A stretch of 21,056 bases of DNA from a virus: positions 1 through 21,056 of IMG/VR virus record IMGVR_UViG_3300045258_000007; one strand, written 5' to 3'. A model generated the notes under the pieces. The model had not been told where the DNA came from and did no database searches. It was given only the letters and a program-made list of their open reading frames with translations. Position numbers and translations under genes: made by a program. Position 1 is the stretch's first letter. Every line of letters starts with the position of its first letter. Of the stretch, positions 5,454-21,056 are shown in pieces.

Positions 5454-5731
5454 GCGACCTGCCGGCGTGGCCGATCAAAGACCCGGACGAGGTGCTGGAC
5501 TACTCGGTCAACTGGACCGCGCGCCTGCCCGACGACGACAAGATCCTGACCTCGACATGGACGATCCCGACCGGGCTGACGCTCAACGCGCAGACCATCG
5601 ACGGCTTCATCACCACGGTGTGGATGTCGGTCGGAGTGAGCGGCGTCACCTACAAGATCTACAACACGATCACCACCCAGGCCGGGCGGACCTTGCAAGA
5701 GGCGGTGCAATTGGTCGTCCGCTCACTGTAG
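5450..5731 (+). CDS. Putative phage fibre-tail adaptor protein
   Basis: This is a 93-residue protein. Its ATG at 5450 overlaps the adhesin stop (ATGA), and the long open frame upstream is an antiphase shadow of the adhesin. The features are W-P-I-K-D-P-D-E-V-L-D-Y near the N-terminus, then two predicted beta-sheet stretches (STWTIPTGLTL, ITTVWMSVGVSGVTYKIYN) and an Arg at the extreme end. This pattern is familiar from small proteins annotated as fibre-tail adaptors that follow fibre genes in proteobacterial siphophages. It would join the fibres to the tail or baseplate. Its position right after the fibre genes supports this. The last 62 bases overlap a convergent small gene. The name is tentative. 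Confidence 0.62.
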   Translation: MSDLPAWPIKDPDEVLDYSVNWTARLPDDDKILTSTWTIPTGLTLNAQTIDGFITTVWMSVGVSGVTYKIYNTITTQAGRTLQEAVQLVVRSL

Positions 5732-5924
5732 ACGGCGCCGGGCTGATCCCCATGCGCATGCACAGGTAGACCGACAGCGCGCGCTCGATGACGATGCGGG
5801 CGTCGCGCTCGATCATCGAGACCTCCCTGATCTTCTGGATCAGGTAGAGCGACTTAGCCGACAGCGGCGCGGTCGTCGCTGGTTGGCACTTTGCCGGTCG
5901 TTGCGGCTTCGCGTTCTTCGACAT
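5670..5924 (-). CDS. Small protein of unknown function (minus-strand island)
   Basis: This is an 84-residue protein on the minus strand. It is supported by a good SD (GGAGAG, three bases before the ATG region at 5922-5924), which is unusual for a shadow frame. The N-terminus is rich in Lys, Pro, Ala and Thr. The middle is an amphipathic helix rich in Ile, Arg and Glu (LIQKIREVSMIERDARIVIE), and the end is Pro/Ser/Arg-rich. Its start overlaps the end of the helix-turn-helix gene by 71 bases, and its end runs 62 bases into the convergent adaptor gene. I do not recognise the family. The translated tail inside the adaptor gene may be incidental. Confidence 0.45.
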   Translation of the reverse strand: MSKNAKPQRPAKCQPATTAPLSAKSLYLIQKIREVSMIERDARIVIERALSVYLCMRMGISPAPSTVSGRPIAPPLARSARPGW

Positions 5925-6192
5925 GGACTCTCCATCGTTCGGGCCATTGCTCTTCCGGGACGAGTTCGAGTAGCTCCAGACTCGACATTACGTATTCCGG
6001 GATCGGCAACGTGCCGGCGACCCAGCGCTTGATGGTCGAGTATTCCTTGCCGAGAGCCTTCGCGACCCGTGGTCCCCAAAACCAGTTATCACCGAACAGG
6101 GCCTTGAAACGCCCCTTCAGTTCCTCACCCTTGCTCGCGTACTTCCTCTTCGGGCGTGCGGCCCGACGCTTGGTCTTGCGCTGCATTTTCAT
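5854..6192 (-). CDS. Small helix-turn-helix DNA-binding protein
   Basis: This is a 112-residue protein on the minus strand. A very basic N-terminus (residues 1-20, mostly Lys and Arg) is followed by FKALFGDNWFWGPRVAKAL and STIKRWVAGTLPIP. That is a helix-turn-helix at about residues 39-62, with the usual Trp at position 57 and Pro-x-Pro after the recognition helix. A Leu/Glu-rich helix and an Arg/Glu-rich tail follow. The start may be 6192 or the second ATG at 6186; the SD is weak for both (GAG). Phage proteins of this kind are typically repressors or antitoxin-like regulators. It faces against the surrounding late genes and may control its own island. The target is unknown, and the palindrome at 6344-6354 is a possible operator. 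Confidence 0.66.
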   Translation of the reverse strand: MKMQRKTKRRAARPKRKYASKGEELKGRFKALFGDNWFWGPRVAKALGKEYSTIKRWVAGTLPIPEYVMSSLELLELVPEEQWPERWRVHVEEREAATTGKVPTSDDRAAVG

Positions 6193-6376: not shown

Positions 6377-7504
6377 ATGATCAACGCAGGGCTGATCGAC
6401 TCACGACGCATCATCGCCAAGCGCGTCACGCAGTTGAGCGACATCGAAGAGATGGCGCGCAAGCTGGAGCCACAGGTCGCGCGCGCGATCCTCGACGCGC
6501 TCCAGCAGCAGGCCGAGTCGGTCGACCTGCGCGAGCTTGAGATCGCACTGAGCACCGGGCAGATCTCGCATGCGCTCTCGCTGCTCTCGATAGACAAATT
6601 CGACGCGGTCATGGCCCCTGCACAGTCGGCGCTACGCCGTGGCGTCTTCGCAGCCGGAGCCTCGACGGTCGCGCGCGCGCTTCTGCCGACGCTGCGCGGC
6701 GTCGCGTTCCGGTTCAACGAGCTAAATCCGCGCCTCATAGACTGGTTGCAGCGCTACGAACTTAATCTCATCCGCGAGATCAACGACAAGACCCGCGAGG
6801 GCGTGCGGACCTATCTCACCACCGGCATGACGGAGGGCAAGAATCCGCGCGCCGTGGCGAAGGAAGTGAAGCAGATCGTCGGGCTCACCGACCGGCAGGC
6901 CATCGCCGTGAAGAACTTCCGGCGCAACCTCGAAACCTTCCACCTCCGGCGCACGGCGCAAGCCTGGGGGCTCGGCAACAAGATCGACCGCGCGCCCGGC
7001 GGCGCCCAGGTGTTCAAGCCCGACGACGACGGCACCCCGAAGGACGCCATCGACGAGCGCAGGCTACGCGATTTCCGTTACGACAAGATGTTGCAGCGCG
7101 CGATGGAGCAGTCGAAGCCGCTGACGCCCGCGCAGATCGACAAGATGGTCGACGCCTACTCGCGCAAGTACCTGAAGCACCGCGCCGAGACGATTGCTCG
7201 CACCGAAGCGCTCCGCACCACGAACGTCGGCGTGCAGGACGCATGGCGGCAGGCCATCGACCAGGGCAAGGTCGCGACCGACAGCGTGCGGCGCAAGTGG
7301 ATCGTCGCGGCCGACGAGCGGCTGTGCGAGTTCTGCGCGCCGATCCCGAGCATGAACGGGAAGCTCGGCGTGCGGATGGACCAGCCGTTCCAGACACCGA
7401 AGGGACCGCAGATGCTCCCGCCGCTGCACCCGAACTGCCGCTGCACGGTCTTCGCGCGCGCCTACGAGCCGAAGCAGATCGCTGCGGCCGAGGCGAAGAA
7501 ATGA
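6377..7504 (+). CDS. MuF / SPP1 gp7-type head morphogenesis (minor capsid) protein
   Basis: This is a 375-residue protein. The SD GGAGAG lies at 6362-6367. The C-terminal third has the family signature: a TIARTEALRTTNVG helix, a Cys pair at 317 and 320 (L-C-E-F-C), and H351-P-N-C354-R-C356, a likely metal-binding group. The N-terminal two thirds are helical (FNELNPRLIDWL, REINDKTREGVRTYLTTGMT, the last like the DNA-entry or portal-interaction region). In Mu and SPP1 these proteins associate with the portal inside the head and affect DNA ejection. MuF genes are known to be fused to or followed by toxin domains in temperate phages. Here the next gene overlaps by ATGA and encodes a metallopeptidase. 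It is a normal-length stand-alone MuF without a fused toxin. Confidence 0.9.
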   Translation: MINAGLIDSRRIIAKRVTQLSDIEEMARKLEPQVARAILDALQQQAESVDLRELEIALSTGQISHALSLLSIDKFDAVMAPAQSALRRGVFAAGASTVARALLPTLRGVAFRFNELNPRLIDWLQRYELNLIREINDKTREGVRTYLTTGMTEGKNPRAVAKEVKQIVGLTDRQAIAVKNFRRNLETFHLRRTAQAWGLGNKIDRAPGGAQVFKPDDDGTPKDAIDERRLRDFRYDKMLQRAMEQSKPLTPAQIDKMVDAYSRKYLKHRAETIARTEALRTTNVGVQDAWRQAIDQGKVATDSVRRKWIVAADERLCEFCAPIPSMNGKLGVRMDQPFQTPKGPQMLPPLHPNCRCTVFARAYEPKQIAAAEAKK

Positions 7505-8769
7505 CCGCGCTCGATGCCCGTCTCGCCCTCATCCGGGCCGGGCTCATCCTCGCCAAGTACAGCGCTACCCAACCGCGCGCGCCCGCTGGGACGGCCATAG
7601 GCGGGCGCTTCGTCGGCCGGGGCGGTGCTGGTGCCGGCGGCGGCTCAGACGCGACAGGCGCCCACCGCACGCCCGCTGACGGGGGTTCGGCGAAGAGCAT
7701 CACGCCCCCGCCGAACATCGGCGGCGGGGCAACGAACCCGCGCTACCAGACGAAGGCGCACGCGCTGCACGCCATGGCGGTCGCCGGCAACATCGCAGGG
7801 CTCGAAGCCGAAGCGGCCAAGCTCACCGCGAAGTTCGAGGAGTCGAAGTCCAAGCTCAAGCAGAACTCGCATGACCGCTGGAATGCGAAGCTCACGGCCT
7901 ACGCGCAGACGCTCGTCGGCGAAGTGAAGGGCGGGGCGACCGGCGGGCCTGTCTCGCCGCCGCCACCTCCACCACCGCCGCCTGTCGGGCCGAAGCCGCC
8001 ACCACCACCACCGCCTGCCGTCTCACCGCCGCCGCCGCCGTTGGCGTCATCGTTCGCGGTGAAGCCGAAGCCGCCGAAGACGCTGGCGCACGAGTATCCG
8101 GCCTCGAATATCGAGGCACGACCGGGGTTCAAGAAGGACATCCCGGTCATGAAGGCGATGATGGACAAGCTGCCGCCTGATCACCTGGGGCTGCTCCAGG
8201 GTGTCAAGACCACGCTCGGCACGGTCAAGGGCCACAACGCGGCCGGGCTGTTCTACTCCCACAACAACACGGTGTTTCTCGGGAAGAACTACACGACGAG
8301 CAAGGAAGTCGTGTATCACGAGATGGGCCATGCGCTCGATCAGGCCATCGGCTCCAAACAGATGACTGCGCAGGGCAAGCAGATCAAAAACTGGCAGGGG
8401 CATTTCACCCGGAATTTTGCGGCGACGCGAGACCCGCTCTACGCGACAGCGGTCGATGACGAGCACAACGCGCTCAAGGCTCTCGCGAAGGCCGGGCATA
8501 CGGAAGCGAAGATGCTCTCGCACTTCACCGGCAGCAGGACCGAGTCGTTCGCGCAGGGCTACGCGGCACTGATGGCGCCGCCCGTGACGCTGAACGCGCG
8601 CATCAACGCGACGCGGCAATACATGCCGAAGACGATTGAAGCCGTGCGCGATCTGCTCGGTCGTCACGGCCTGACCGTGCCGCCGCCTGCGCCGTATCAG
8701 CCGCCGCCGAAGCCGCCGCCGATGCCGGTGGGCTTCAAGCCTTACCCTGGATATGTGAGCCCAGCATGA
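7501..8769 (+). CDS. Tagged virion-associated metallopeptidase, lethal-factor-like (putative effector)
   Basis: This is a 422-residue protein. The start at 7501 overlaps the MuF stop (ATGA). The N-terminal helix LDARLALIRAG matches the start of the protein at 8981. It contains tag TQPRAPAGTAIGGRF at 23-37; a Gly-rich linker; a helical module at ~68-138 shared with the 1,212-residue protein; a proline-rich linker at 153-180 (runs of 9, 7 and 5 Pro); and a metallopeptidase domain at ~200-385. That domain has V-Y-H273-E274-M-G-H277-A-L-D (HExxH) and E348-S-F-A-Q-G-Y-A-A-L, the layout of the anthrax lethal factor-like zinc peptidase family. In that family the third ligand Glu precedes F-A. A second Pro-rich tail follows. 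Substrate is unknown. Its position behind MuF suggests carriage in the head and delivery into the host. It could instead act in virion maturation. Confidence 0.8.
   Translation: MTALDARLALIRAGLILAKYSATQPRAPAGTAIGGRFVGRGGAGAGGGSDATGAHRTPADGGSAKSITPPPNIGGGATNPRYQTKAHALHAMAVAGNIAGLEAEAAKLTAKFEESKSKLKQNSHDRWNAKLTAYAQTLVGEVKGGATGGPVSPPPPPPPPPVGPKPPPPPPPAVSPPPPPLASSFAVKPKPPKTLAHEYPASNIEARPGFKKDIPVMKAMMDKLPPDHLGLLQGVKTTLGTVKGHNAAGLFYSHNNTVFLGKNYTTSKEVVYHEMGHALDQAIGSKQMTAQGKQIKNWQGHFTRNFAATRDPLYATAVDDEHNALKALAKAGHTEAKMLSHFTGSRTESFAQGYAALMAPPVTLNARINATRQYMPKTIEAVRDLLGRHGLTVPPPAPYQPPPKPPPMPVGFKPYPGYVSPA
7567..7611 (+). repeat. PAG/GGQW-type tag motif, copy 1
   Basis: The coded motif is T-Q-P-R-A-P-A-G-T-A-I-G-G-R-F at residues 23-37 of the metallopeptidase. 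It matches the copies at 9074 and 9821 at Q-P-R-x-P-A-G and G-G. It is preceded by a short helix and followed by low-complexity Gly/Ala, as expected for an exposed peptide. Confidence 0.8.
7702..7914 (+). repeat. Shared helical module, copy in metallopeptidase
   Basis: Residues ~68-138 of the metallopeptidase align without gaps to residues ~303-375 of the 1,212-residue protein. Shared positions are PP-x-I-G-G-G, N-P-x-Y-Q-x-K-A, A-G-N, K-x-E-x-S-K-x-K, and N-S-H-D-x-W-N-A-K-L-x-x-Y-A. It is predicted to be a helical hairpin or bundle. Confidence 0.82.
7957..8040 (+). repeat. Polyproline linker coding tract
   Basis: Three consecutive proline runs of 9, 7 and 5 codons are separated by V-G-P-K and A-V-S. 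Codons are mixed (ccg, cca, cct), so the run is not simple DNA slippage. Such tracts stall ribosomes and normally need elongation factor P. The run separates the tag/helical part from the peptidase domain. Confidence 0.9.
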
Positions 8770-8984
8770 CCCTCAAGGTGCTCTACACCGTCACCAAGAT
8801 GGACGACGGCAGGTTCTATGTCATCTCGTCGATGGACGACGAGGAGACCGGCATGCTCGGCGACGGCGAGATGTGGGTCGGTCCTGGCGAGACGGTCCTC
8901 GACCGCTGGAAGTTCGAGGACATCAAGGAGGGCCAGTACAACGAGAAGGGCGAGTATCTCGGGGAGCAGTGGAACGAACCTTGA
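8766..8984 (+). CDS. Small acidic protein between the two tagged effectors
   Basis: This is a 72-residue protein, overlapping the metallopeptidase stop by ATGA and the next start by TTGA, so it is translationally coupled on both sides. It is rich in Asp and Glu, with a beta-prone N-terminus (LKVLYTVTKM, GRFYVISSM) and W-V-G-P-G-E-T-V-L-D-R-W. It has no tag motif. Its size, acidity and position make it a candidate inhibitor or chaperone of the metallopeptidase, or of the following multi-enzyme protein. This is inference from context only, as I do not recognise the family. Confidence 0.68.
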   Translation: MTLKVLYTVTKMDDGRFYVISSMDDEETGMLGDGEMWVGPGETVLDRWKFEDIKEGQYNEKGEYLGEQWNEP

Positions 8985-11900
8985 GCACTGACTCGCTACG
9001 CGCGCGCCTGTCCCTGATAGGCGCGAACATCTCGATGGAGCAGTTGCGCGAGAGGTATTCCAAGTCGGTCGGCACGCAGCCCCGTGTGCCGGCCGGCTCG
9101 CCATCCGGCGGGCAATGGGCGGGCGGTCACAGCGGCGGCTCGGGAGCGTCGTCGAGCAAGCCATCGAGCGGCAAGCCGCACCCGCGCGTGGACGACAAGG
9201 GCCAGCCGGTCACCATCACGTCGCCGACCAAGCCCACCGATTCATCGTCGTGGCACGCTGCCGACAAGACCGCGACGTTCGTTCCTGACGGCGCCACCCC
9301 GAAGTCGCTGATGGGCGTGGCGATGAAGCCGTGGACGCCGCCGACCACCGCTGCCGGATGGGCCAAGGTCGAGGGCCAAGATCCGACGCTCGATCACGCA
9401 CCACCGCAGCCCGTGCGGGGCAAGAGCGTGGCGGCCGGCGTCGTCGTCATGGAGCCGGACGGTCGCGTGTGGCTCGTGAAGCCGACCAACAACTTCGCCG
9501 GCTACAGCAACACCTTCCCGAAGGGCACGATGGAGCCCGGCATGTCGCTCCAGGCGACAGCCATCAAGGAGGTGTACGAGGAGTCGGGCCTCAAGGTGAA
9601 GCTCACCGGCCTGCTCGGCGACTTCGAGCGGCCCGGCAGCGTCGCGCGCTACTACGTCGGCCAGCGAACCGGCGGCACTCCGGCAAAGATGGGCTGGGAG
9701 TCGCAGGCCGTTCGCCTCGCGGCGCCGGAGCATCTGGGCAAGCTGCTGAACGCATCGGTCGACCGCAAGATCGCCGACACGCTGATGCGCGAGGCCAGGA
9801 TCGGCAAGGCGTTCAGCATCCAACAGCCGCGCTGGCCCGCTGGCACGCCGCTCGGCGGCCAGTGGCTCAAGGTGTCGGCCAGCGGCATCGTCATGCCGCC
9901 GCACATCGGTGGCGGCACCGCCAATCCGCAGTATCAGAAGAAGGCCGACCAGATCTTCGCGCATGCCGAGGCCGGCAATCACACCGCCGTCAAGGACATG
10001 GCGACCGCGCTCGCGCAGAAGGTCGAGGCGTCGAAGCTCAAGGCCAAGACCAACTCGCACGACTCGTGGAACGCGAAGCTCTCGCAGTACGCCAACGCGG
10101 TCGCGGACACGTCGCAGCAGACGCACACCGCCGTCGCGGTCGCCGACAAGATCGATGGGCCGCTCAAGCTCTCGGAGATGACGCACTTCGCGCCGAAGCC
10201 GGGCGGTCAGAGTCCGGGCGCGATCTACAAGGACGCGAACGGCGAGACGTGGTTGGTCAAGGGCAACGCGCAACTCCAGCAAGGCAATGTCTCACAGACG
10301 GTGTCGGATGATCGCGCGCGCAACGAGGTGACCGCAGCGCATCTGTTCAACGCCGCCGGCACGCAGGCGCCGGAGATGAAGCTCGTCGAGCTTGGCAGCG
10401 CGCACGGCGGCGGGCTCGGCGTGGCGTCGAAGATGATCGCGGGCATGTCGCCGTTCGACATCAAGAACGGCGCGCAACTCGCAGCAGCGCAGCAGACGTT
10501 CGCCGCGCAGGTCTGGCTTCGCAATCACGACGCGCTCGGCAACCACAACGACAACATCACGATCTCGAAGGACGGCAAGGGCATCGCGGTCGATCCCGGC
10601 GGCGCGCTCGGGTTCAAGGGCTGGGGCTTGCCGAAGCCGGACGGTGTTCCCGATCACCCGTCCGAGTGGACGAGCATGCGGGACAAGTCGAAGGCGCCGA
10701 CCGCAGCGCCGACGTTCGGCTCGATGACCCAGTCGCAATTGCAGGCGAGCGCGAAGCCGCTGGCGAGTGTCGGCGACGACCAGATCAAGAAGATCGTCGA
10801 TACCTACGGCCCCGGCAGCAAGGAGCAGAAGGCCAAGCTCGCCGAGTCCCTGATCAAGCGGCGCGATGCGATCCTCGACATGGCCGGGCTCGACAAGGCG
10901 GGCAATCCGAAGGTCGTCGCACCGCCGCCGCAGCCCGTGCAGCCGCCGACGCCACCGGCCGCCGCGATTGCGAGCCACCCCACGGCGTCGCACTCGCAGT
11001 TCCCGCCGCCGACGTTCAACACCGGCTTCGCTTCCGCCAATGCGGTCTATGACAAGCTCGCGGCCGACATGGTCGCGGCGCACGCGGCCGGCGACGCGGC
11101 CAAGATCCAGGCGCTCAAGGTCAATGCTGTTCCAGGGCCGCACATTAGCGCCAACGGTCAGAAGCTCATCGACTACGCCGACAAGCTGACCGCGAACCTG
11201 AACTCGAAGGCGGTCAACGTCGCCACGCAGAACGTGGCGCCGGGCTCGCTTGCGCCAAATCCCAACGTCGCGCAGCCGGGGACCGCGAAGCCGGTCAGCA
11301 ACGCCGCGATGCCGCTGTTCGAGAACCACAAGATCAGCGGCAACAACCAGAACGCTGGCAGCCACAACGCGAAGGTCGAGACCATCGCGAAGCTGGCGAT
11401 GGCCGGCAACATCAACGGCATCCTCGCGCTCAACTACTCGACCAACACCTACGGCGTGAAGCAGCACTATCTCGCGAACGACACGCTGAAGGCGCTCGGC
11501 TCGCCGCACATGGTCACGCCGGGCCAGAAGAAGGGCGCGCATCCTGCGCTTCAGGCGAACTTCAACCTGAACCAGACCGCCATCGCGACGGCCAACGCCG
11601 CGACGGCTGCGGTCGCACCGCCGGGAGGCGCTACGCCGCCGGCCGCCAAGGTGCCGGTCCTCGATCCATCGAAGCTGCCGAAGCCGCCGGACTACAACAC
11701 CAGCGGTCAAGGCGGCAAGCCGATGCACGGCGCGCAGTGGAAGAACGACGCGAACAATGCCGAGGGCGCGCACATCCAGAGTCTCGCGCTCGGGCCGAAG
11801 CCGGTCGAGGCGCTCAACGCCTACACGATCAAGTCGCCGTCGAAATATCTCCAGGCATACAAAGATCAACTGCTCACGGAAATCGACAGCCAGTTGAATC

Positions 11901-12619
11901 CGCCCGCACCGATAGTCGTGCATCACGCGGCCGGCGCCGACGTTCATACCTTCGCCGGCAAATCGCCGTATCCGGTCGGCACTGCATACACCAGCATCAA
12001 ACCGCAGGAGCGCTTGGCGTTCTATGCGGCGGTCGCCATCATCAAGACGCAGATCAACTGGAGCGACAAGGAATCGGTGCAGTCAGAGCAGTGGGTCAAG
12101 GACGGCTACAAGGAATACGACAACTCGTCAGCGGTCACCAAAGCCGGCATCTCCGTGCAGCAAGGCAATCCGCATCAATTCCGTGGCAAAAGCCTGCAAA
12201 GCAAGATCGGCGGCAGCGGTTACACCCTGCACGAAATGATGAAGCACTGGGACAAGGACGCGAAGATCGTTCCGGAGGGCACCAAGCTCTATCGCTACGT
12301 GGGGCTCACGAAGGAGATGAAGGACCAGATGCTCGCGGCTGAGCCTGGGACCGTCTTGCAAGACCTTTCGCCCGGTGCGGCATCGCGTGACAACGGTCGA
12401 AATAATACGTTCGGCGGCAGTAGCTCGAACAGCAAGATCGAGTTCATCACGTTGTCTGGCGTGCGCGCGATCAAGTCCTACGGCAGCAAAGGTTTTCAGA
12501 ACGAGATGGAGACCACACTGATGCCCGGTCAGCGCTTCATGATTCACAAGGTGACGAAGCGCGCGAACGGCGGCGTCAAGATCAAAGCGATTCTACTGCC
12601 CACGCAATCGCCTGTTTGA
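8981..12619 (+). CDS. Giant tagged effector: Nudix, kinase-like fold and ADP-ribosyltransferase
   Basis: The TTG at 8981 gives 1,212 residues. It is chosen because of the TTGA overlap and because LRARLSLIGA then matches the metallopeptidase N-terminus. Domains in order: tag TQPRVPAGSPSGGQW at 32-46; Nudix domain at ~148-268 with box 182-204, where K-E-V-Y-E-E-S-G-L (196-204) keeps the metal ligands but Met188 replaces the usual first Glu; second tag at 281-295; helical module at ~303-375; kinase-like domain at ~390-555 (K427, D517, N521/N525, V-D538-P-G-G); three diverged helical modules at 679-740, 777-839 and 904-972 in Pro/Ala-rich linkers; and a C-terminal R-S-E ADP-ribosyltransferase (L-Y-R1105-Y-V-G, S1147-S-S, E1175-M-E1177). 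It is probably a head-packaged host-takeover protein, compare T4 Alt. The kinase fold is the least certain part. No signal peptide or membrane segment is seen. Confidence 0.78.
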   Translation: MSTDSLRARLSLIGANISMEQLRERYSKSVGTQPRVPAGSPSGGQWAGGHSGGSGASSSKPSSGKPHPRVDDKGQPVTITSPTKPTDSSSWHAADKTATFVPDGATPKSLMGVAMKPWTPPTTAAGWAKVEGQDPTLDHAPPQPVRGKSVAAGVVVMEPDGRVWLVKPTNNFAGYSNTFPKGTMEPGMSLQATAIKEVYEESGLKVKLTGLLGDFERPGSVARYYVGQRTGGTPAKMGWESQAVRLAAPEHLGKLLNASVDRKIADTLMREARIGKAFSIQQPRWPAGTPLGGQWLKVSASGIVMPPHIGGGTANPQYQKKADQIFAHAEAGNHTAVKDMATALAQKVEASKLKAKTNSHDSWNAKLSQYANAVADTSQQTHTAVAVADKIDGPLKLSEMTHFAPKPGGQSPGAIYKDANGETWLVKGNAQLQQGNVSQTVSDDRARNEVTAAHLFNAAGTQAPEMKLVELGSAHGGGLGVASKMIAGMSPFDIKNGAQLAAAQQTFAAQVWLRNHDALGNHNDNITISKDGKGIAVDPGGALGFKGWGLPKPDGVPDHPSEWTSMRDKSKAPTAAPTFGSMTQSQLQASAKPLASVGDDQIKKIVDTYGPGSKEQKAKLAESLIKRRDAILDMAGLDKAGNPKVVAPPPQPVQPPTPPAAAIASHPTASHSQFPPPTFNTGFASANAVYDKLAADMVAAHAAGDAAKIQALKVNAVPGPHISANGQKLIDYADKLTANLNSKAVNVATQNVAPGSLAPNPNVAQPGTAKPVSNAAMPLFENHKISGNNQNAGSHNAKVETIAKLAMAGNINGILALNYSTNTYGVKQHYLANDTLKALGSPHMVTPGQKKGAHPALQANFNLNQTAIATANAATAAVAPPGGATPPAAKVPVLDPSKLPKPPDYNTSGQGGKPMHGAQWKNDANNAEGAHIQSLALGPKPVEALNAYTIKSPSKYLQAYKDQLLTEIDSQLNPPAPIVVHHAAGADVHTFAGKSPYPVGTAYTSIKPQERLAFYAAVAIIKTQINWSDKESVQSEQWVKDGYKEYDNSSAVTKAGISVQQGNPHQFRGKSLQSKIGGSGYTLHEMMKHWDKDAKIVPEGTKLYRYVGLTKEMKDQMLAAEPGTVLQDLSPGAASRDNGRNNTFGGSSSNSKIEFITLSGVRAIKSYGSKGFQNEMETTLMPGQRFMIHKVTKRANGGVKIKAILLPTQSPV
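9074..9118 (+). repeat. PAG/GGQW-type tag motif, copy 2
   Basis: The coded motif is T-Q-P-R-V-P-A-G-S-P-S-G-G-Q-W at residues 32-46, directly after an N-terminal helix related to that of the metallopeptidase and before a Gly/Ser-rich linker leading to the Nudix domain. Confidence 0.85.
9821..9865 (+). repeat. PAG/GGQW-type tag motif, internal copy 3
   Basis: The coded motif is Q-Q-P-R-W-P-A-G-T-P-L-G-G-Q-W at residues 281-295, between the Nudix domain and the helical module. An internal copy followed by the same helical module as in the metallopeptidase suggests that two originally separate tagged proteins were fused here. Confidence 0.85.
9893..10105 (+). repeat. Shared helical module, copy 1 in giant effector
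   Basis: Residues ~305-375 (PPHIGGG, NPQYQKKA, AEAGN, KTNSHDSWNAKLSQYA) are closely related to the module in the metallopeptidase and sit right after the internal tag, so the tag-module order is conserved between the two proteins. Confidence 0.82.
11015..11200 (+). repeat. Diverged helical module, copy 2 in giant effector
   Basis: Residues 679-740 carry FNTGFASANAVYDKLAADM, AAHAAGDAAKIQAL and a closing helix GQKLIDYADKLTANL. The N/Y/K start, the A-G-D/N turn and the K-x-x-x-Y-A end follow the module pattern, with lower similarity. Confidence 0.55.
11309..11497 (+). repeat. Diverged helical module, copy 3 in giant effector
   Basis: Residues 777-839 contain NHKISGNNQNAGSHNAKVET, I-A-K-L-A-M-A-G-N-I-N-G-I, then a Tyr-containing helix KQHYLANDTLKAL. 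A-x-A-G-N in the middle is the clearest link to the other copies. Confidence 0.52.
11690..11896 (+). repeat. Diverged helical module, copy 4 in giant effector
   Basis: Residues 904-972 have a Gly/Asn-rich lead, a helix (AHIQSLALG, PKPVEALNAY) and a closing helix KYLQAYKDQLLTEIDSQL. It is the most diverged copy and lies just before the ADP-ribosyltransferase. Confidence 0.4.
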
Positions 12620-18902: not shown

Positions 18903-19308
18903 CGACACGCCGAAGCTGTTCTTCGCCAGCATCAAGCGCTGGCACGAGAAGACCCAGGCGACGCTTCTCGCGATTGCGCGTCAGAGCGCGTTCGAGCTAG
19001 CGGAGCGCGTGGTCGTCGCGACGCCGGTCGACACCGGATTCCTGCGCGGCTCGTGGCAGCCATCCATCGGCGGGCCGGCGAAGTTCGGCGGCGGCGCCTT
19101 CGTCATCGCGGCGGTCGTCCAACAGATCAAGCTCGGCGACGTGTTCATGCTGCGCAACAATGCGGCCTACGCGATGCGGATCGAGTTCGGCTTCGTCGGC
19201 ACGGACAAGCTCGGTCGCCACTACAATCAGAAGGGCCGCTACATGGTCACCGACAACTGCGCGAAGTGGAAGACCATCGTCGCCGACATCGCGAGGCAAC
19301 TCAAATGA
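18889..19308 (+). CDS. HK97 gp10-like neck / tail-completion protein
   Basis: This is a 139-residue protein. It has the typical A-T-P-V-D-T-G-F-L-R-G-S-W block followed by N-N-A-A-Y-A-M-R-I-E-F-G, the signature of the HK97 gp10-like family of tail-attachment proteins. A long N-terminal helix (HEKTQATLLAIARQSAFELA) and a C-terminal helix complete the domain. It sits directly before the tail terminator and overlaps it by ATGA at 19305-19308. Confidence 0.86.
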   Translation: MANANDTPKLFFASIKRWHEKTQATLLAIARQSAFELAERVVVATPVDTGFLRGSWQPSIGGPAKFGGGAFVIAAVVQQIKLGDVFMLRNNAAYAMRIEFGFVGTDKLGRHYNQKGRYMVTDNCAKWKTIVADIARQLK

Positions 19309-19730
19309 GCGGCATCGCAACCGTCGAGGCCGACATCCGCTCGGCGTTCCGGGCCGCGCTGCTCGCCGTTCCTGGCCTGCCCGAGGGGCGCAAGTGGGAA
19401 GGCAAGCCCTATCAGCCGATACTCGGGACGCCGTTCATCGCCGAGACGGTGCGGCCGGTCTACTCGATGGTGCGCGCGCTCGGGCGCGGCGGCAACATCG
19501 AGCATCGCTTCCTGTGCATCGTCAACCTGAACTTCCCTGACGGTCGCGGCACCGCTGCCATCGACACGCTCGCGGGCGCCATCCGTGAGAAGCTCTCGCC
19601 GGCTACATCGTTCGCCTACAACGGCACGGCGGCCTACATCCTTCGCGCCGAGACCGGGCCGCTCATCGAGGCGCCCGATTGGTTGACCAAGCCGGTCATG
19701 ATCACGGTCAGCACCTACACGACCAACTAG
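19305..19730 (+). CDS. Tail terminator-like protein
   Basis: This is 141 residues from the ATG at 19305 (ATGA overlap). It starts with V-E-A-D-I-R-S-A-F-R, has P-F-I-A-E-T-V-R-P, a strand F-L-C-I-V-N-L-N-F-P, and a late ITVSTYTTN strand, the layout of small tail-terminator proteins (DUF4128-like). These cap the tail tube and fix its length at the head-proximal end. The following gene is the tail tube, as expected. Confidence 0.8.
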   Translation: MSGIATVEADIRSAFRAALLAVPGLPEGRKWEGKPYQPILGTPFIAETVRPVYSMVRALGRGGNIEHRFLCIVNLNFPDGRGTAAIDTLAGAIREKLSPATSFAYNGTAAYILRAETGPLIEAPDWLTKPVMITVSTYTTN

Positions 19731-19736
19731 ACGAAC

Positions 19737-19759
19737 GCTCCCGCTCGGGCGGGCTGAGC
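19737..19759. other. Small GC-rich hairpin between terminator-protein and tube genes
   Basis: GCTCCCGC and GCGG-G-CT-GAGC can pair around TCGG, giving a short imperfect stem in the 88-base gap before the tail tube gene. There is no T-run. It may stabilise mRNA. Confidence 0.3.
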
Positions 19760-19802
19760 CGACGCGCTCGCGTGCGCGCCGTGGCGTCGTCGCGTCCACC
19801 CC

Positions 19803-19811
19803 AGGAAGGAG
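19803..19811 (+). promoter_or_regulatory. Strong SD fixing a TTG start for the tail tube gene
   Basis: AGGAAGGAG lies seven bases before the TTG at 19819. No ATG is suitably placed, so the TTG is the start. A strong SD with a weak start codon suits a highly made tube protein. Confidence 0.8.
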
Positions 19812-19818
19812 AATCCCC

Positions 19819-21011
19819 TTGACCCAGGCGTTGCAGGAATCCGTAGGCGTCACCCTCACCTACGGTCCAGAGACGGTATTCGGCACGCAGTCGGCGTCGG
19901 CCGGCAAGAAGATCGCGCGCGTCTCGTCGTCGCTCGTGCTCGGCAAGGCGAGCTTCGCTTCGCAGACGGTGCGCTCCGACCAGGAGATCGCGGACGCCCG
20001 CCACGGCATGCGCCGCGTCACCGGGCAGGTTGCCGGCGAGGTGATGATGCAGATGTGGGACGACTGGTTCGAGGCGCTGCTGCGCGGCACCTGGGCGGCC
20101 GGCGCGATACTCGATAATACGACGTATACCTCCGTCTCGGCCGACAACCCCACGAGCAAGTTCACCTTGGGCGCAGGCGATCCGGTCGTGACCGGCCTGC
20201 TCAAGGTCGGCGACATCATCAATTTCGGCAGCACCATCACCGGCCCGAATGCGAACTCGAACTTCCGCATCGCGTCACGAACAAGGACATCACGGTCGTC
20301 CCGGCGCCGGCCACGATGGGCGCGGACACCACCTTCACGCTCACCGTCTCCGGCAAGAAGCTGACGACCGGAATCGTCAAGCGGTCGTTCTCCATCGAGC
20401 AGATCATGCCGGCGCAGGACGTGTCCGAGATGTTCTTGGGCTGCCGGCTCTCGCAAGGCTCGTTCCGCCTGCCGCCCGATGGCATGGCGACCGTCACCTT
20501 TGACGTGATGGGCCAGGGCTCGAACACGCTGACCGGCGCCGCCAGCCCCGGCTTCGTCGCGCCGACTCCGGAACCGAACACGGCGATCCTCGCCGGGCTC
20601 AACGGCGCGCTGCTGATCAACGGCGTCGAGTCCGCGAACGTGACCGGCATGGACTTCACGTTCAACAACAACATGAACCAGACGCCCGTGCTCGGCTCCG
20701 ACGTGTCGCCCGACGTGTTCCACGGGCTCAAGACGGTCACCGGCAACATCTCGCTGTTCATCCAGGACGAAACGCTGCTCAACACCTTCCAGAACGAGAT
20801 CGAGGTCGGCATCACAGCGGTGCTGGAAGCGGCCGGCGGCGGCGTGGCGCCGCAGTTCATCGCCTTCTGCTTCGACCGCGTCAAGCTCATGGGCATCACG
20901 CGGCAGGTCGGCGCCGATGGCGGCGTCATCGGGCAGTTCCCCTTCCAATCGCTGCTGTCGAACACGCCCGGCGGCGGCTCGATGCACATCCAGCGCAGCA
21001 ACCTCACCTAG
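19819..21011 (+). pseudogene. Phage tail tube protein gene, broken by a frameshift near 20274
   Basis: Two frames together encode one tail tube protein. The first (19819 to ~20274) begins T-Q-A-L-Q-E-S-V-G-V-T-L-T-Y-G and contains MMQMWDDWFEALLRGTW. It then turns into an Arg/Ser-rich tail (stop 20364). The second frame, from 20274, continues sensibly as V-T-N-K-D-I-T-V-V-P-A-P and carries RSFSIEQIMPAQDVSEMFLG, LINGVESANVTGMDFTFNNN and the end at 21011. Adding one base at 20274-20275 joins them as F-R-I-A-V-T-N-K-D, 397 residues. The family is the siphovirus tube (tail tube 2 type). It is either a real lesion or an assembly error. Programmed shifting is unlikely because no slippery site is seen. 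Confidence 0.8.
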
Positions 21012-21023
21012 CCATCGGCGAAA

Positions 21024-21048
21024 AGCCCCTGTTATGGTGGCGGGGGCT
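21024..21048. terminator. Possible weak terminator after the tail tube gene
   Basis: AGCCCC (21024-21029) and GGGGCT (21043-21048) pair over 6 bp with a 13-base loop, 12 bases after the tube stop. There is no T-run before the window ends. Confidence 0.3.
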
Positions 21049-21056
21049 CGGGACCG

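Follow-up and report, generated by a model that had tools for sequence, protein, structure and literature searches.

A frame break in the tail tube gene of a metagenomic virus contig, likely produced by a one-base consensus error

Results

A tail tube gene divided between two reading frames
We analysed a linear metagenomic virus fragment of 21,056 bases, the whole of its IMG/VR record (hereafter the window), and found that its tail tube gene is divided between two reading frames by a break near position 20,274. The break is likely a one-base insertion or deletion in the contig consensus that came from sequencing or assembly error. As judged from its sequence, the gene is an ordinary major-tail gene of a siphovirus-like phage, with 152 codons in one frame (frame N) and 245 in the other (frame C). 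The record is probably a fragment rather than a complete genome. Three other explanations of the break, namely a real mutation, ribosomal recoding and a split gene, are weighed below, and the likelihoods attached to all four are judgements and were not calculated. The coordinates are collected in Table 1.

Table 1 Features of the tail tube region in the window
Feature	Coordinates	Strand	Evidence
Tail terminator gene, intact, directly upstream of the tube gene	19305..19730	+	PF13554 E 2.2e-10; phrog_179 E 7.5e-13
Shine-Dalgarno-like AGGAAGGAG, seven bases ahead of the TTG start at 19819	19803..19811	+	read from the sequence
Frame N, N-terminal 152 codons of the tail tube gene	19819..20274	+	Phage_tube_2 and phrog_290 matches; 43% identity to relative L003
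Frame break, best joint 20273-20274	20264..20280	+	codon usage, frame decoder, alignments to relatives
Out-of-frame tail of ORF 19819-20364, Arg-rich, 29 residues then stop	20275..20364	+	ORF translation; codon score negative
Frame C, C-terminal 245 codons of the tail tube gene and stop	20274..21011	+	Phage_tube_2 and phrog_290 matches
Predicted stable RNA hairpin past the joint, inside the tube coding sequence	20290..20372	+	z -2.79; -4.3 (60 shuffles); -3.45 (200 shuffles)

In frame N an ORF opens with TTG at 19819, reaches its stop at 20362-20364 and encodes 181 amino acids, while frame C, which lies one base back (-1 sense), has no stop from 20118 until it terminates at 21009-21011. A codon-usage split trained on the other genes of the window placed the best joint at 20273-20274, and a seven-state frame decoder to which the joint was not supplied switched frames at 20272/20273. 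In blocks of 45 bases, the frame N codon score stayed positive through the block that begins at 20211 and turned negative with the block at 20256; the frame C score behaved in the opposite way, and the block starting at 20436 was near zero in both. In alignments to L003 and L002, the nearest relatives, the protein followed frame N through residue 151 and frame C from its residue 2. These results bear out the preliminary description, in which the tube protein continued in the -1 frame from 20274, to within a few bases, and its remark on an Arg-rich end of the frame N product also held, with 10 Arg counted among the 29 residues of the translated out-of-frame tail.

Both parts belong to one tail tube family
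The N-terminal half matched PF18906 (Phage_tube_2) with an E-value of 4.6e-7 over profile positions 4-99 of 266 and phrog_290 with an E-value of 2.9e-14; the C-terminal half matched the same two profiles with E-values of 1.2e-26 (positions 74-265) and 6.8e-32, respectively. When the window was searched with phrog_290, two places were found in order, 19846-20169 and 20319-21017. A chance origin of the break is ruled out by these collinear matches of both halves to one family, which also support the earlier claim that a single tube gene is frame-broken; in addition, all other decoder switches on the + strand fall at gene ends. The window gene thus resembles other members of PF18906/phrog_290 in that both of its parts match the profile in order and that it follows a tail terminator gene, but the relatives are encoded in a single frame whereas the window gene is split at 20273-20274. 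The solved chain 8xan_B, annotated as 'Major tail structural protein', belongs to the same family by profile comparison (E 2.4e-69 and 3.1e-72, each of the matching profiles having contained one window half). It is a single chain of 307 residues and does not have the optional segment in which the window joint falls. A literature search on this solved protein found nothing useful, and the AlphaFold model of the relative L003, with a mean pLDDT of 36.7, was unusable.

The right part of the window carries a head-tail module on the + strand, as defined by Pfam and phrog profile matches, in the order scaffold-like protein, major head protein, head-tail adaptor Ad1, head closure Hc1, Neck1/tail completion, tail terminator and tube gene. 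The position of the tube gene after the tail terminator is that expected of head-tail gene order and is the same in the named phages L007 and L008. Within the head module on the + strand, the ORF at 8873-12619 encodes 1248 amino acids; residues 185-300 hold a NUDIX domain (E 2.7e-13), and the long part that comes after it has no Pfam match. The + strand ORF at 7243-8769, which lies directly after the Mu F-like gene at 6377-7504, encodes long proline runs and has a weak, below-cut-off match to metallopeptidase M90.

Relatives carry the tube gene in one frame
The preliminary description had proposed a comparison with homologues at the break, and we carried it out. A first profile was built from eight relatives (L002-L009), with the window excluded, and run on 34 records. 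In ten of the 34, all of them relatives (L002-L009, L013 and L030), the tube lay in one open frame, and in two, the window and L001, which is its own copy, it was found as two pieces. The other 22 did not match this profile, most of them being capsid loci that end before the tube. Run on the records of four of these 22 (L012, L014, L019 and L031), phrog_290 matched in each. Of the remaining 18, 16 extend less than 4,500 bases beyond the capsid, and the other two (L032 and L033) share a contig with L031. Applied to eight records (L002, L003, L012, L013, L014, L019, L030 and L031), phrog_290 identified 11 places in total, four of them in the L031 record, and the tube was unbroken in each record. 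Stops within the matched spans were terminal in L002, L003, L012 (L035), L013 and L030 (L036), and the stop in L014 falls ahead of the start. In the metagenomic contig L019, an in-frame TGA is internal; it lies at locus position 6680, which is codon 369 of the matched span when the first codon is numbered 0. The L019 tube gene is otherwise open over about 530 codons, and its TGA lies further on than the window break and is unrelated to it.

Taken together, all 14 distinct related records (the eight above and L004-L009) hold one frame across the joint; 13 of the 14 are free of internal stops, and all six named phage records are intact. The closest relatives are merely 33-43% identical in protein sequence, which precluded a base-by-base comparison with a close relative. 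The joint falls in a segment of variable length, which L002, L003 and the five named phages L004-L008 all have in frame. The segment, several dozen residues long, is optional in this family and separates two conserved parts. As a separate observation, the contig JAESPQ010000022.1 (L031, L032 and L033), filed under an Alteromonadaceae metagenome-assembled genome (MAG), has three copies of the phage capsid region and four of the tube gene, about 65 kb apart; it probably represents the head-to-tail assembly of a phage genome that was then binned with bacteria.

The optional segment bears on the reading that we consider least probable of the four, in which the gene is truly split and two polypeptides jointly form the tube, the second starting from the ATG at 20316. 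The joint does lie inside this segment, which is absent from phage Ab18 (L009) and from 8xan_B. However, the ATG at 20316 is the sole ATG, GTG, TTG or CTG of frame C within 20118-20340, and no Shine-Dalgarno-like sequence lies ahead of it. A start there would lose the codons at 20274-20315, which are coding-biased and homologous to the relatives, and none of the 14 relatives has a split tube gene.

Recoding and the downstream hairpin
We also considered the very improbable reading that the phage truly carries the shifted frame and that programmed or corrective -1 ribosomal frameshifting yields the tube by fusing both frames at a site that lacks a classical slippery heptamer, aided by the long hairpin at 20290-20372. 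This hairpin is the only hint of programmed frameshifting. Its z score of -4.3 was the third lowest of 208 stretches scanned in the right part of the contig, and frameshifting is documented in the tail genes of other phages, as described in the excerpts of PMC5009743 and PMC6316719. Against recoding, no slippery heptamer of the form X XXY YYZ occurs at 20101-20364, none of the codons at 20248-20283 re-matches two of three bases one base back, and the hairpin begins some 15 bases past the joint. The matching stretches of the relatives gave z scores of -0.28, -2.04 and -1.58 in L002 and -0.30, -0.46 and -0.29 in L003, so the hairpin is not clearly common to both. None of the 14 relatives needs a shift, that is, the shift is not conserved, although the nearest of them are only 33-43% identical. 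A CCC at 20149, which re-pairs fully one base back, was examined as a candidate slip site and rejected, because the frame N codon scores and homology persist for about 120 more bases. A search of 20000-20600 against Rfam returned just a sub-threshold snoRNA match at 20025-20103, which was regarded as chance.

The known cases differ from the window in the position and the kind of the shift. According to the same excerpts, +1 shifts at CCC by the stop codon yield a second tail protein in the Listeria phages PSA, A118 and A500 and in SPP1, and a -1 shift near the 3' end of the chaperone gene G of lambda yields gpGT (PMC5009743, PMC6316719). PSA tsh, SPP1 17.1* and lambda G/GT are like the window in that the frame changes within a tail gene. 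In contrast to the +1 shifts of PSA tsh and SPP1 17.1*, the change in the window is -1, mid-gene and not at a slippery heptamer; lambda G/GT shares the -1 direction, but its shift lies near the 3' end of the gene whereas the window break is mid-gene, again with no slippery heptamer. In the cases described there, tail frameshifts occur at the 3' end of the gene and give an extension or a fusion, while the window break falls mid-protein. Should a real shift be recoded here, it would represent an unusual mid-gene event in a major virion protein, and the most abundant tail protein would then depend on frameshifting.

Consensus error or real mutation
Codon bias is fully retained on both sides of the joint, so that the break, if it is real at all, must be recent. 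On the + strand, the joint is the sole frame change that the decoder placed within a gene, and it lies 782 bases from the contig end. Because this break is single on the + strand and close to the contig end, a consensus error is likelier than the fixed loss of an essential structural gene. The proximity of the contig end and the strong hairpin just after the joint are plausible causes of poor coverage. We propose that the consensus carries a one-base length error near 20273-20274 in an otherwise ordinary tube gene, and that the slip would have arisen during sequencing or assembly in a GC-rich stretch with a strong hairpin adjoining and the contig end near. The lone in-frame TGA in the L019 tube gene indicates that single-base breaks occur in metagenomic contig records. 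In viral metagenome assemblies of a mock community, indels ranged from <2 to 474 per 100 kbp depending on the method, as given in an excerpt of PMC6487183. Two observations speak against an error: homopolymers of four or more are absent at 20200-20330, and, if short reads were used, the rates in that excerpt would predict fewer than about 0.4 indels in 21 kb. Exact-pattern scans of viral_contigs gave no second copy of the window virus and a DNA search of phages with 19300-21056 gave no match, in searches whose answers may omit near-identical records.

On the - strand, within window positions 5719-6192, the decoder shifted from the ORF at 5854-6192 to the upstream part of the ORF at 5670-5924 near 5970-5980. 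This change is weak. Pfam matched neither of the two ORFs, and the switch may mark a second break of frame or no more than a pair of small genes that overlap.

It is possible, though unlikely, that the indel is a real and recent mutation in the phage or prophage, either in a defective genome or as a minority variant caught in the consensus, which would make a full tube impossible. The printed sequence codes solely for the truncated 181-amino-acid product, and L019 provides another interrupted tube gene in a metagenomic contig. However, no decay is seen elsewhere on the + strand, where the genes are open and codon-biased, and few members of a population abundant enough to assemble should carry a lethal change.

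Discussion

Long-tailed phages need a tail tube, and its loss would have the consequence stated in the preliminary description, a phage unable to form infectious particles. That the gene is broken as printed stands, but its loss by the phage is unproven and less likely than a record error, since the break is alone on the + strand and near the contig end of a metagenomic fragment. A failure to make particles would follow only if the indel were confirmed by reads. The break is not a novel system and bears no sign of a new mechanism; most likely it reflects a slip in assembly or sequencing, or otherwise a single defective phage genome. Under the favoured explanation of a consensus error, the natural phage would read a single continuous frame and make an ordinary tube. 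Slips of one base in the consensus of a metagenomic virus contig can thus mimic the loss of an essential gene and can lead automatic annotation to two partial tail genes.
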